Source: Gammaproteobacteria bacterium (lineage in GTDB: Bacteria > Pseudomonadota > Gammaproteobacteria > UBA6429 > Thiohalophilaceae). From it: a stretch of DNA of 64,000 nucleotides. Below, piece by piece: positions 59,155 through 64,000 of this stretch. A model generated the notes under the pieces. The model was not told the DNA's origin and ran no database searches. It saw only the letters and a list, made by a program, of their open reading frames with translations. Each line of letters opens with the position of its first letter. The stretch's first letter is position 1. The position numbers were made by a program, and so were the translations under genes. The DNA lies in NCBI GenBank assembly GCA_024641475.1, contig JAHECZ010000003.1, forward strand, positions 44,770-108,769. Reading direction: 5' to 3'.

Positions 59155-59245
59155 CGCGTAATTTAACGGGACTTTGCGCCTGTCATTGAACTGTGAATTG
59201 GCTTACAATGCGCCAAGCCAGTTTTGTATAACACGCAAATTCTCC

Positions 59246-59953
59246 ATGACAAAACAATCTGATTCAGCCTCTGTAGCTAACTTATCCGGTAGCGAAGCCC
59301 TTGGCATGCTGGATCGATCCAATCTTGAAGCGTTACTTGTTGAACATCAGCAACAGTTAGCCGCTTTACCTGCGACAACTGCTGCACTCCAGCGTGCACG
59401 CGTGCAACTGGATATCGCCAGTGATCTGCTGGCGTTGCAACGCCAAACCGAATCATGGCAATTAGCACGTCAATGTGCCGACATATTTCTGCAACAACAC
59501 GCCTGGCAAGAAGCCGTTGAAAGCTTTGATGTACTCTATCAATGTGAACAAGGTGACGCCGTGATGGCACTCGGACACGGCGTCTGGTTAGCCGTCACCT
59601 TTCCGATTTCGCCACAAACCAGCGTCGCCATGTTGCAACACATCATTGATGAAACACCGGGCAATGCTGATGGTGCCGCCGTTGCCGCTGCCACCGCACA
59701 TTATCTTGCCGATCTGCGCTGTGCGCCGGAGCAACGCGACAGCCTGATGTTTCTCACTACCCAAATGATCGCCGCCGTGGCTAAAAATCATAGCCAAATC
59801 TCTTCACAAGAGATGCTCGATTTCTGGATGGAACGTCTGCAATTAAACGACCCTGCGATATTCATTCCGCGTCTGGCCAAAGTCATTGAAGCAATGGTTG
59901 ATGGTCACTGGTGGTTCGATCGCGATCGTCTGCGCGAATTATTACCGGATTAG
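59246..59953 (+). CDS. Hypothetical protein
   Basis: Start at MTKQSDSASVANL; 235 aa, helix-rich appearance, upstream of the DUF502 gene. Confidence 0.7.
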   Translation: MTKQSDSASVANLSGSEALGMLDRSNLEALLVEHQQQLAALPATTAALQRARVQLDIASDLLALQRQTESWQLARQCADIFLQQHAWQEAVESFDVLYQCEQGDAVMALGHGVWLAVTFPISPQTSVAMLQHIIDETPGNADGAAVAAATAHYLADLRCAPEQRDSLMFLTTQMIAAVAKNHSQISSQEMLDFWMERLQLNDPAIFIPRLAKVIEAMVDGHWWFDRDRLRELLPD

Positions 59954-59956
59954 ATT

Positions 59957-60643
59957 ATGGAACCTCAGACGACACCTCGTAATCGTTTCACGCTGCGCGC
60001 CCAACGTTACATTCTTACCGGAATTATCACGATAATCCCGCTGTGGTTTACCTATATCGTGTTTGAATTTTTCCTTGTGCAATTGTCCGATGTTGGTCTG
60101 CCCTGGGCTGAAGCCATTGTCCTGGCATGGAAACAATATTCCCCCGACGCCGGCACCTGGCTGACTGAGCGCTGGTTTATGAACACCCTGGCGGTGATCA
60201 TGACGATCGTGGCGTTGTATGTATTGGGATTCATCGCCACCCGGGTAATTGGCCGACGCATTCTGGATCTGTTCGATCAACTCATGAGCTCTATTCCGCT
60301 GGTACAAAATATTTATGGTGCAGTGAAAAAACTTGTCGCCGTACTGCAAAAAAAACCCGATGGCACACGCCGAGTGGTATTGATCGAATTTCCGGCCAAG
60401 CACCTGATGACAGTCGGGTTCGTGACCCGCATTATGCATGACAAAGACACCGGTCAGGCACTGGCTGCCGTGTATGTACCGACCACGCCCAATCCGACTG
60501 GCGGATATTTACAGATCGTACCTTTGGATAGTTTAATTGAGACCGACTGGACGATGGATGAAGCGATGACCTTCGTGTTGTCCGGTGGCGCCGTTGCACC
60601 AGAGCAAATCAGCTTGCAAAAACGGCCAGCTGCAGAAAAATAA
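59957..60643 (+). CDS. DUF502 family membrane protein
   Basis: YILTGIITIIPLWFTYIVFEF, SSIPLVQNIYGAVKKLV, VYVPTTPNPTGGYLQIVP. Confidence 0.9.
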   Translation: MEPQTTPRNRFTLRAQRYILTGIITIIPLWFTYIVFEFFLVQLSDVGLPWAEAIVLAWKQYSPDAGTWLTERWFMNTLAVIMTIVALYVLGFIATRVIGRRILDLFDQLMSSIPLVQNIYGAVKKLVAVLQKKPDGTRRVVLIEFPAKHLMTVGFVTRIMHDKDTGQALAAVYVPTTPNPTGGYLQIVPLDSLIETDWTMDEAMTFVLSGGAVAPEQISLQKRPAAEK

Positions 60644-60648
60644 TCCGG

Positions 60649-61056
60649 CTACTTCTTGCCGTCTTTCTTTTTTGTCAAAAATACACCCGGTATCCAGGTC
60701 TTACGCAATTGCGTCGTCTCCTGCAGAGTATCACTGGCATCATGCTGGAATTGAAAATTGTTCATGCCAATACGAATGATATCGTTGTGTTTCAACTTGC
60801 TCATCGTGACAGCTTTATCATTGACATAGGTATGGTTGGTGCTGCCCTGATCCTGGATATAGAACTCCGATTGCGGCGGTTCATTTTTCTTGGCGGCCTC
60901 TTTCACCACCAGCTCGATGACCGCGTGTAATTTGCTGACAAGTTCGTCGTTGATGCACAAATCATTTTCCGGACCACGGCCGATGGAAAAACGTTGCTTG
61001 TTGATCCGGACCTTGACGCCGGACTCGCCTTCTTGCATCTGAATGAGGACTGCCAT
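60649..61056 (-). CDS. FHA domain protein
   Basis: FSIGRGPENDLCINDELVSKLHAVIE, DQGSTNHTYVND. Confidence 0.9.
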   Translation of the reverse strand: MAVLIQMQEGESGVKVRINKQRFSIGRGPENDLCINDELVSKLHAVIELVVKEAAKKNEPPQSEFYIQDQGSTNHTYVNDKAVTMSKLKHNDIIRIGMNNFQFQHDASDTLQETTQLRKTWIPGVFLTKKKDGKK

Positions 61057-61143
61057 AACTCGCTACGGGGTTGGGATAGGTATCCAATTATAGCTGCTAA
61101 AGCCCTGCCAACAATGGCAGGAATCGGCTATATACGGCGCGAC

Positions 61144-61566
61144 TTAGGCGTCAACGCCCAGGGTACGCAAACGGCGGCTAAAATTGAAGGTACTGGATTG
61201 GCTGGATGCTGCAGGCGCTTCGATTTGTATATGCATGGCTTCGAGGGCTTGTTGATCCAGCGTGCCATCGAATTTGAAATTGGTTTTGCCGATGCGGATA
61301 ATGTCACCACTACGTAATTTGACGCGTTGCACCAGTGCATCGTTCACATAAGTATGGTTGGTGCTACCCAGGTCTTCGAGATAAAAATCGAAGCCATCCC
61401 CCATGATGTTTTCCGTCGCTTCAATGATCGCATGGCGTTTGCTGACGAAAGCACAAGGCACACTGATATCGTTATCGGCGGTGTTACGCCCAATCGAAAA
61501 GATGCGTTTGTCCAACCGGTATTTAATGCCGGGGGCACCGCTGGCGAATTGAATTAACGCTGCCAT
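61144..61566 (-). CDS. FHA domain protein (paralog of adjacent gene)
   Basis: FSIGRNTADNDISVPCAFVSKRHAIIE, DLGSTNHTYVND; start at 61566. Confidence 0.9.
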   Translation of the reverse strand: MAALIQFASGAPGIKYRLDKRIFSIGRNTADNDISVPCAFVSKRHAIIEATENIMGDGFDFYLEDLGSTNHTYVNDALVQRVKLRSGDIIRIGKTNFKFDGTLDQQALEAMHIQIEAPAASSQSSTFNFSRRLRTLGVDA

Positions 61567-61719
61567 GTCATATTCCTCAATCCTGAAAAACACGCTGGCC
61601 ACAGTACTGTGGGGGTGGTGCATAGTAGACTGAGTTTTACTATTAAAAAAGTGTTAGGAATCACAAAATTACACGATGAAAATTAGCGATTACTAATATA
61701 CGGACTCGATTCTCGCCAA

Positions 61720-61769: not shown

Positions 61770-62555
61770 TTATTTAAATACCTGCGTCAAAAACACCTGC
61801 ATTCGCTGCCATGAATCTATATCAGCCTGTTTGTCATAGGCGAGTGGTAAATTAAATTCCTTGGCAAACTTATCCGCCTCCGGGTTGGTAAAGGCATGCC
61901 TGGCCCCCTGATAACTGATAACGTCAAATTTGGCCCCTGCCGCCGCCATTTCCTGTTTGAATTGTGTAACCGCCGCATCATTCGCCATCGGATCGGCGGC
62001 GCCGGTCAGCACCAGGACAGATGCTTTAATCATGCCTTTGGCGGCGGGTGAATTCGTTCCCAAACTCCCATGAAAACTCACCACGCCCTTTAAATCTTCA
62101 CCCGCACGTGCCATTGCCAACACAATACCGCCACCAAAACAATAACCAATGGCTGCAACCCTGGATTTATCCGTTAAAGGATCTGCTTTTAACAGCTGCA
62201 TTGCCGCTTCAAAACGTTGTTTGGCGATGGGTAAATTACCTGCCACGGCTTTGGAAAATGCCCCCGCGTCTTTGGGATGATTGGCGGTCTTGCCATCGCC
62301 ATACATATCAACCGCTAACGCAACATAACCCAGTGCTGCTAACATCCGCGCACGTTGACGTGCATACTCATTGTGTCCCCACCATTCATGCACCACGAGC
62401 ACGCCGGGGCGTGGCTGGGTGGAAGTATCGTCAAAGGCCAGATAGCCTTTTAAGTGCGTATCACCTGCCTGATAGGTCACTGCTTTACCGACAACGGCTG
62501 CCTGAACCAGCGCCACACTGCAGAATAAAACCAAAGCGGTTAAGACTGTTTTCAT
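61770..62555 (-). CDS. Secreted dienelactone hydrolase family protein
   Basis: Signal peptide MKTVLTALVLFCSVALVQA; GYCFGGG nucleophile elbow; VLVVHEWWGHNEYARQRARMLA. Confidence 0.92.
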   Translation of the reverse strand: MKTVLTALVLFCSVALVQAAVVGKAVTYQAGDTHLKGYLAFDDTSTQPRPGVLVVHEWWGHNEYARQRARMLAALGYVALAVDMYGDGKTANHPKDAGAFSKAVAGNLPIAKQRFEAAMQLLKADPLTDKSRVAAIGYCFGGGIVLAMARAGEDLKGVVSFHGSLGTNSPAAKGMIKASVLVLTGAADPMANDAAVTQFKQEMAAAGAKFDVISYQGARHAFTNPEADKFAKEFNLPLAYDKQADIDSWQRMQVFLTQVFK

Positions 62556-62828
62556 ATCAACCTCCACTGTGATGAACATTGCGCAGAAGTTTTAATCCTT
62601 CACTGTAGCGAATGCAAGTAGAATCCATAGAAACGTTTCCCAATCGCGCTCCCAGCGCTCATATCGCAGAATGCAATCAGGTTGCAATCCGGCATCTGGT
62701 CCAGCTTTGCATCCGGATGACTTAAGCTTTATATTGTTTCGACAATTACGTCACGCCGGTTGAGTGGCATACTGCCTCATTCCATGTCAACCATACGAAT
62801 TTGATATCCATCATGCTATGCTGAACCG

Positions 62829-64000
62829 ATGATGATTCTCCCTTTGCGCATTCTCATGTTGAGTCTGGCGCTATGTTTTCCGATATTGTGCATACAGACA
62901 CATGCTGACGAACTGTCGCTACATACTGCCGACGGCACCGATCTCAACGTCCAGCGTTATTCAGCGCAAGGCGATTATGTATTGCTATGGATTGCGGCTG
63001 GCAACGGTTTGGATCAACGCGAGATCCAATTCGCCAAAGACCTCGCCGGAAAAAGTATCGAAGTATGGCAAATAGATTTTGCCGATGCATTGTTTCAGCC
63101 TCATGGTAATCAGCTGTTACGCGATCTCAATGCCGACTATGTAGCTGACTTGATCACGACTGCACATGCGCAAACCGGCAAACACGTTTTATTGGCAGCG
63201 CATGCCTATGGCGCGATACCCGTCATTAACGGAATCCATCGTTGGCAATCCCGCCGTCCGGTATCAGCCTATGTCACCGGTGCGCTATTATTTACCCCGG
63301 AACTGTATACCGGCCCACCGGAATTGGGCAAAGATCCGGAGTTTATCGCAGCTACGTATGCGACCCGCGTACCGCTGTTCATCTATCAAGACGCGAAGCA
63401 TCACACCAACTGGCAATTACCGCGACTGTTGCGCATTCTTGAATCAAACGCCGCGCCGGTCTACGTGAAATCACTACCGGGGGTAACGGGGTTATTTTAT
63501 GCCAGCGATGACTCCGCAGCGACCGCAGCGGCATTATTCAATTTGCCAACCGAGATTCACCGCCATATCAAACTACTGGCACATTACTCGACACCACTGG
63601 CAGCACTGCCGATTTCAAGGAATCCCGCCCACGCAAACACAAAACTGGATTCAAAATTGGTTGCATTTTCAGGTAATCCTGACCCTCCCAAACTGGCTTT
63701 ACACGACATTAACAACAAAGCGTATCTGCGCAATGATTATCGTGGCAAAGTAACGATAGTAAATTTCTGGGCGACCTGGTGTCCTCCCTGCGTGGAAGAA
63801 ATCCCATCGCTCAATCGCCTGCGCAGTCAAATGCACAGTGAGAAATTTGAACTGATCTCAATTAATTATTCCGAGGAGCCCGCGCGTATTCGTCATTTTT
63901 TGCAACAGGTCCATGTTGAATTTCCAGTGTTATTGGACCCGGGTGGTCATACTGCCACACAATGGCGCGTTTACGTATTTCCTTCCACGTTTGTAATTGG
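62829..64000 (+). CDS. Secreted fusion: alpha/beta-hydrolase-like domain plus TlpA-like thioredoxin domain, partial
   Basis: Manual translation from ATG 62829, open to window end; signal peptide, LLAAHAYGA elbow-like motif, then VTIVNFWATWCPPCVEEIPSLNRLRSQ. Absent from ORF track because it lacks an in-window stop. Confidence 0.82.
   Translation, partial: MMILPLRILMLSLALCFPILCIQTHADELSLHTADGTDLNVQRYSAQGDYVLLWIAAGNGLDQREIQFAKDLAGKSIEVWQIDFADALFQPHGNQLLRDLNADYVADLITTAHAQTGKHVLLAAHAYGAIPVINGIHRWQSRRPVSAYVTGALLFTPELYTGPPELGKDPEFIAATYATRVPLFIYQDAKHHTNWQLPRLLRILESNAAPVYVKSLPGVTGLFYASDDSAATAAALFNLPTEIHRHIKLLAHYSTPLAALPISRNPAHANTKLDSKLVAFSGNPDPPKLALHDINNKAYLRNDYRGKVTIVNFWATWCPPCVEEIPSLNRLRSQMHSEKFELISINYSEEPARIRHFLQQVHVEFPVLLDPGGHTATQWRVYVFPSTFVI

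Follow-up and report, generated by a model that had tools for sequence, protein, structure and literature searches.

NDRG proteins, neuroligins, and thyroglobulin have a hydrolase fold whose catalytic triad has been replaced and which is kept for interaction (PMC7022630). Neisseria PilB joins a TlpA-like domain to MsrA-MsrB in a system fed by DsbD (PMC6210582). Searches of the accessible literature for a fusion of a hydrolase with TlpA found nothing relevant. One such fusion is encoded at the end of the window, the whole 64,000-nucleotide stretch of gammaproteobacterial DNA analysed here, and it belongs to a real, conserved, and apparently undescribed pseudohydrolase-TlpA family.

The fusion gene is a single open reading frame that runs from an ATG at 62829 through 63998 on the forward strand and remains open to the window end, which is also the end of contig C32. 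The final 121 bases of the window recur exactly at the start of contig C109 of the same genome, which supplies 35 further residues in frame (GPDGKIHYGV...HKKQP). The ORF, which the first-pass annotation had proposed to complete from flanking sequence, thereby becomes a full fusion protein of 425 residues. The signal peptide, the hydrolase-like region, and the TlpA domain with WCPPC that were originally read in one frame are all present (Table 1).

Table 1. Features of the fusion gene and its divergent neighbour (window coordinates; residues of the fusion protein).
Feature	Coordinates	Strand	Evidence and remarks
Secreted dienelactone-hydrolase-like (DLH) enzyme, divergent neighbour, Cys147/Asp196/His228 intact	61770..62579	-	Pfam DLH E 3.9e-47
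Fusion gene	62829..64000	+	390/425 codons here (N-terminal), remainder on contig C109
Signal peptide, residues 1-26 (..IQTHA|DELS), without lipobox	62829..62906	+	Sequence reading; hydrophobic helix 3-15 in AlphaFold2 model; cleavage site after THA26 inferred
Predicted pseudo-alpha/beta-hydrolase domain, residues 27-256 (~230 aa)	62907..63596	+	AlphaFold2 pLDDT 95.7; Foldseek probability 1.00 to esterases
Degenerate nucleophile elbow A-A-H-A-Y-G	63195..63212	+	Nucleophile place = Ala126 (GCC, 63204-63206); Tyr127 invariant in subclade
Beta7 end: Gln187 conserved (77/86), Lys190 at the place of the catalytic acid	63387..63398	+	Family alignment, hhalign to DLH
Post-beta8 loop GVTGLF, Gly221 at the place of the catalytic His	63480..63497	+	Family alignment, hhalign to DLH
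Interdomain linker, residues 257-284	63597..63680	+	Without helix or strand; pLDDT down to about 80
TlpA/ResA-like thioredoxin domain	63681..63998	+	AhpC-TSA E 3.2e-19; top Foldseek match ResA; 35 aa more on C109
Redox active site C-P-P-C (C318, C321)	63780..63791	+	Within WCPPC 63777-63791; ResA-type Glu324 at 63798-63800

According to structure prediction, the N-terminal domain (N-domain) is an alpha/beta-hydrolase fold. AlphaFold2 models of the 390-residue protein (71 sequences; pLDDT 93.6, pTM 0.89) and of the N-domain alone (82 sequences; pLDDT 95.7) both follow the canonical alpha/beta-hydrolase element order, with beta5 spanning residues 119-125 and helix C beginning at 126. The modelled elbow turn between these two elements lies at residues 124-128, and the topology is the eight-stranded alpha/beta one. 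Foldseek searches of the PDB with the N-terminal part return HSL-type esterases, Thermogutta Est2, the esterase domain of Rmar_1206, lipases, and DLH (probability 1.00), with query TM-scores of about 0.60-0.76 among the best 50 matches. Both models and the structural search thus agree with the hydrolase resemblance proposed in the first-pass annotation.

Searches of Pfam, NCBIfam, and the PDB with N-domain sequences gave almost exclusively sub-threshold matches, and for the query N-domain even the best Pfam match, Ser_hydrolase (E 0.03-0.07), stays under the cut-off. A sister sequence, L186, exceeds the Pfam cut-off for Abhydrolase_6 (34.5 vs 26.3 bits; E 4.4e-8) and has the elbow SHSYG where the query has AHAYG. 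The hhalign comparison with the neighbouring DLH family is weak (E 9e-4, probability only 23%) and sets Ala126 on Cys147, Lys190 on Asp196, and Gly221 on His228 of DLH. Because the fold, the homologues, and this weak profile alignment agree, the elbow register is supported. Profile searches recognise these proteins only by their C-terminal third, as TlpA/redoxin-type, and Pfam holds no separate family for the conserved and widespread N-domain.

The loss of the triad covers all three positions in essentially the whole family. The query has A126 in place of the nucleophile, K190 in place of the acid, and G221 in place of the His. In the alignment of 86 relatives, the residues at the nucleophile position are G (33), S (21), D (15), A (5), E (4), and a few more; the entropy of this column, 2.44 bits (rank 109 among the 230 positions of the N-domain), is close to the domain mean of 2.40. 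Most members have K, L, R, or N where the acid would be. Across the N-domains of the 86 members, no conserved His was found anywhere, nor was a conserved Ser or Cys found across the N-domain of the family. In contrast, the neighbouring DLH family holds C147, D196, and H228 invariant (9 relatives). Within the query's subclade, Ser is kept at the elbow in 20 of 28 members, and all 28, the Ser-bearing ones included, have S, G, or A at the place of the His. Judged by these residues, the family appears dead as a hydrolase, even in the members that retain Ser. Ala occupies the elbow in three separate places of the subclade tree, namely in the query, in L183 and L195, and in L188 and L193. The change from Ser to Ala at the elbow, as originally described, is correct for A126 but too narrow, as the acid and the His are also lost, and family-wide. 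No other Ser takes over the place of the nucleophile; A126 aligns with the Ser of the sister sequences and, weakly, with Cys147 of DLH.

Despite this loss, the N-domain is maintained and not decaying, because dN/dS in seven close pairs is 0.10-0.27 for this domain, indicative of purifying selection; the corresponding range for the thioredoxin (Trx) domain is 0.06-0.16. Conserved N-domain residues are W54, G60, W80, D83, F89, W139, Q140, G151, P157, P164, G167, P182, Q187, and F223, and Tyr127, which adjoins the elbow, is found in 28/28 members of the query's subclade. Mean entropy is 2.40 bits in the N-domain versus 1.79 bits in the Trx domain. For loops, conservation is only slightly higher at the edge of the pseudo-active site than at the opposite edge (entropy 2.26 vs 2.52). 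Nearly all members have no Cys in the N-domain, and it is therefore not itself a thiol relay.

By analogy with the known families, the Trx domain is likely a dithiol reductase, because the Cys pair, the cis-Pro, and the ResA-type Glu are conserved: both Cys and the cis-Pro are present in 82/82 Trx domains and the Glu in 81/82. The domain scores 69.5 bits with Pfam AhpC-TSA (cut-off 26). It fails the NCBIfam cut-offs for ResA (78.7 vs 170), DsbE (53.6 vs 123), and TlpA (65 vs 230), scores that were taken on the 390-residue truncated copy and are hence slightly low. The genome encodes a full-length DsbD, a possible electron source for the Trx domain, and, besides the fusion protein, five or more TlpA/CcmG-like proteins that stand alone.

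The N-domain is present in 78 of 369 genomes in an even sample of the host's class and in 36 of 58 genomes of near relatives, commonly in two copies. A phylum-wide sample contained almost no N-domains outside the host's class, and a plasmid search for the family gave no match. The second copy of the host genome, on contig C69, is 30% identical to the query. The tree has three groups: the elbow reads x-(S/A)-Y-(G/A) in that of the query; A-S-G-R-G, GVRDRFYFRPDA in the second; and x-D-R-M in the third. Very long upstream open frames at L146 6376-9327 and L164 5910-8021 (983 and 703 aa, respectively) are probably start-site overcalls, not extra domains.

Since 86 homologous ORFs could be aligned and 82 of them carry the WCxxC fusion, the joining of the two domains is not due to chance. 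One of the four unfused ORFs is cut by its own contig end, and the other three (L197, L198, and L199) come from one family. In these three, a separate gene for a 173-aa secreted TlpA-like protein comes next, and its start, as called, lies 4-26 bp inside the end of the pseudohydrolase gene. In L216, from another family, the pseudohydrolase gene is followed by a secreted TlpA-like gene in a different frame. Fused copies cluster strongly in the Trx-domain tree (4 changes vs 31.9 in shuffles), a pattern compatible with one origin of the fusion as well as with several. The best evidence for a functional partnership of the halves is that they travel together, whether fused or adjacent, and the natural split pairs make this partnership directly testable.

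Clustering the neighbours of the 86 loci revealed no consistent operon partner except TlpA in the split lineages, and conservation of the neighbourhood across these loci is too low to name a pathway or a client. The secreted DLH-like gene adjacent to the fusion gene, already pointed out in the first-pass annotation, is confirmed by its Pfam match (Table 1), and a DLH gene recurs at 10 loci. Genes for rubredoxin reductase and for a UvrD/Rep-type helicase recur at 15 loci each, mostly beside the second paralogue, which is often divergent from the rubredoxin reductase (Rbx_binding) gene (e.g., L180 3547-4689; host contig C69). The gene that immediately follows the second paralogue of the host genome (L090 9029-10288) encodes a secreted protein that has an elbow-like GSSRG motif and matches Big_9 at its C-terminus, and this protein may be an active alpha/beta hydrolase; the first copy likewise adjoins a secreted hydrolase (DLH). 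Alongside the split pairs (L197 5687-6328, L198 7090-7725, and L199 7437-8117), a diheme cytochrome c gene is found in divergent orientation in 3/3 genomes.

In three sisters of the query (L183 5688-9193, L186 5698-11601, and L195 3387-7243), the fusion gene lies 14-54 bp after a PP2C phosphatase gene; a protein-kinase gene and DLH are nearby, and some of the three also have FHA genes there. In the window, two FHA genes (60649-61623) are located, with DLH, beside the fusion gene. The fusion gene may be linked to a Ser/Thr phospho-signalling cluster because PP2C, kinase, and FHA genes occur near the sisters and two FHA genes and DLH occur in the window. A 259-aa ORF without a Pfam match (59174-59953) and then a DUF502 gene (59957-60643) are also found in the window, and relatives of both are found near other fusion genes.

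On balance, the fusion protein is probably a TlpA/ResA-type thiol-disulfide oxidoreductase of the periplasm, with a dead hydrolase N-half that serves client docking or ligand binding. The protein would be exported to the periplasm via its signal peptide, where the DsbD of the genome would keep the Trx domain reduced. The Trx domain, in turn, would reduce a disulfide (or sulfenate) that a dedicated class of clients carries. As the docking or ligand-binding module, the pseudohydrolase would select or position the client for the Trx domain, probably via the former active-site rim. This proposal draws on PilB, in which a TlpA-fold domain that shares a chain with its partner is fed by DsbD, and on NDRG and neuroligins, in which a triad-less fold is used for interaction. 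The binding module suggested in the first-pass annotation is consistent with the conservation, the purifying selection, and the split adjacent pairs, but the binding role itself is something that we infer. Against docking by a dead hydrolase, Ser at the elbow in 20/28 subclade members could mean a residual role, and the conservation bias toward the pseudo-active-site edge is slight (2.26 vs 2.52). More tentatively, the former hydrolase pocket may now serve as a sensor or as a site of client recognition that steers the TlpA domain to a dedicated client, in an undescribed family found mainly in one class of Proteobacteria, with the paralogues of one genome serving different clients. The candidate recognition residues would then be the Tyr or Arg beside the dead elbow and the conserved Gln at the beta7 end.

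A passive N-domain is an unlikely alternative to a docking module, although non-enzymatic alpha/beta-hydrolase folds elsewhere are protein-interaction scaffolds (PMC7022630). It would be a mere structural scaffold or oligomerisation module, similar to neuroligins and NDRG, with no part in client choice, and its mean conservation, much lower than in the Trx domain (2.40 vs 1.79 bits), would fit such a role. However, two lineages secrete the halves separately from genes that lie side by side, which suggests interaction over passive scaffolding. The N-domain could also still be an enzyme that uses a rearranged site (e.g., the invariant Tyr127 or Asp83), possibly a non-hydrolytic one comparable to cofactor-free enzymes of the alpha/beta-hydrolase fold. 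The strong conservation of the pocket-side residues G60, D83, F89, P157, G167, and Q187, the presence of Tyr127 in 28/28 members of the subclade, and the Asp at the nucleophile place of 15 members all favor this explanation. Yet there is no conserved His, Ser, or Cys, and the nucleophile, acid, and His columns are free to vary, which makes retained catalysis quite unlikely.

A conventional reductase of cytochrome c maturation, that is, a CcmG/ResA orthologue with a dispensable N-domain, would agree with ResA as the best structural match and with the diheme cytochrome c gene that adjoins the split pairs. Such an assignment is very unlikely in view of scores far under the NCBIfam cut-offs for DsbE/CcmG, ResA, and TlpA, the five or more further stand-alone TlpA/CcmG-like proteins encoded in the genome, and the lack of enrichment of CxxCH genes near the family genes (8/355 near vs 9/524 far). 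The contig end that cuts the ORF could raise the suspicion of a pseudogene, a frameshift join, or an assembly artefact. This is scarcely credible, as the exact 121-bp overlap restores the frame, 82 relatives are fused, and dN/dS is low.

Compared with known systems, the fusion family is a variant among TlpA-like reductases. With ResA, TlpA, and CcmG (DsbE), it shares a Trx-like domain with WCxxC, the cis-Pro, the ResA-type Glu after CxxC, and an export signal. It differs from them by an extra pseudohydrolase of ~230 residues, by scores under every NCBIfam cut-off of those families, and by a signal peptide that is apparently cleavable instead of a membrane anchor. The N-domain shares its predicted fold and strand order with DLH and HSL-type esterases, whereas it is without their catalytic nucleophile, acid, or His. 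NDRG, neuroligins, and thyroglobulin are likened to it by fold; unlike the fusion proteins, these named cases come from eukaryotes and carry no fused thioredoxin domain. PilB likewise has a TlpA-fold domain and a partner in one chain, but its partner domains are active enzymes reduced by the TlpA-like domain, whereas the partner domain of the fusion is Cys-free and apparently dead as a hydrolase. Because it is Cys-free, the pseudohydrolase cannot itself be the reduced client. The family offers a defined example, from bacteria, of an apparently dead hydrolase retained together with a redox enzyme.
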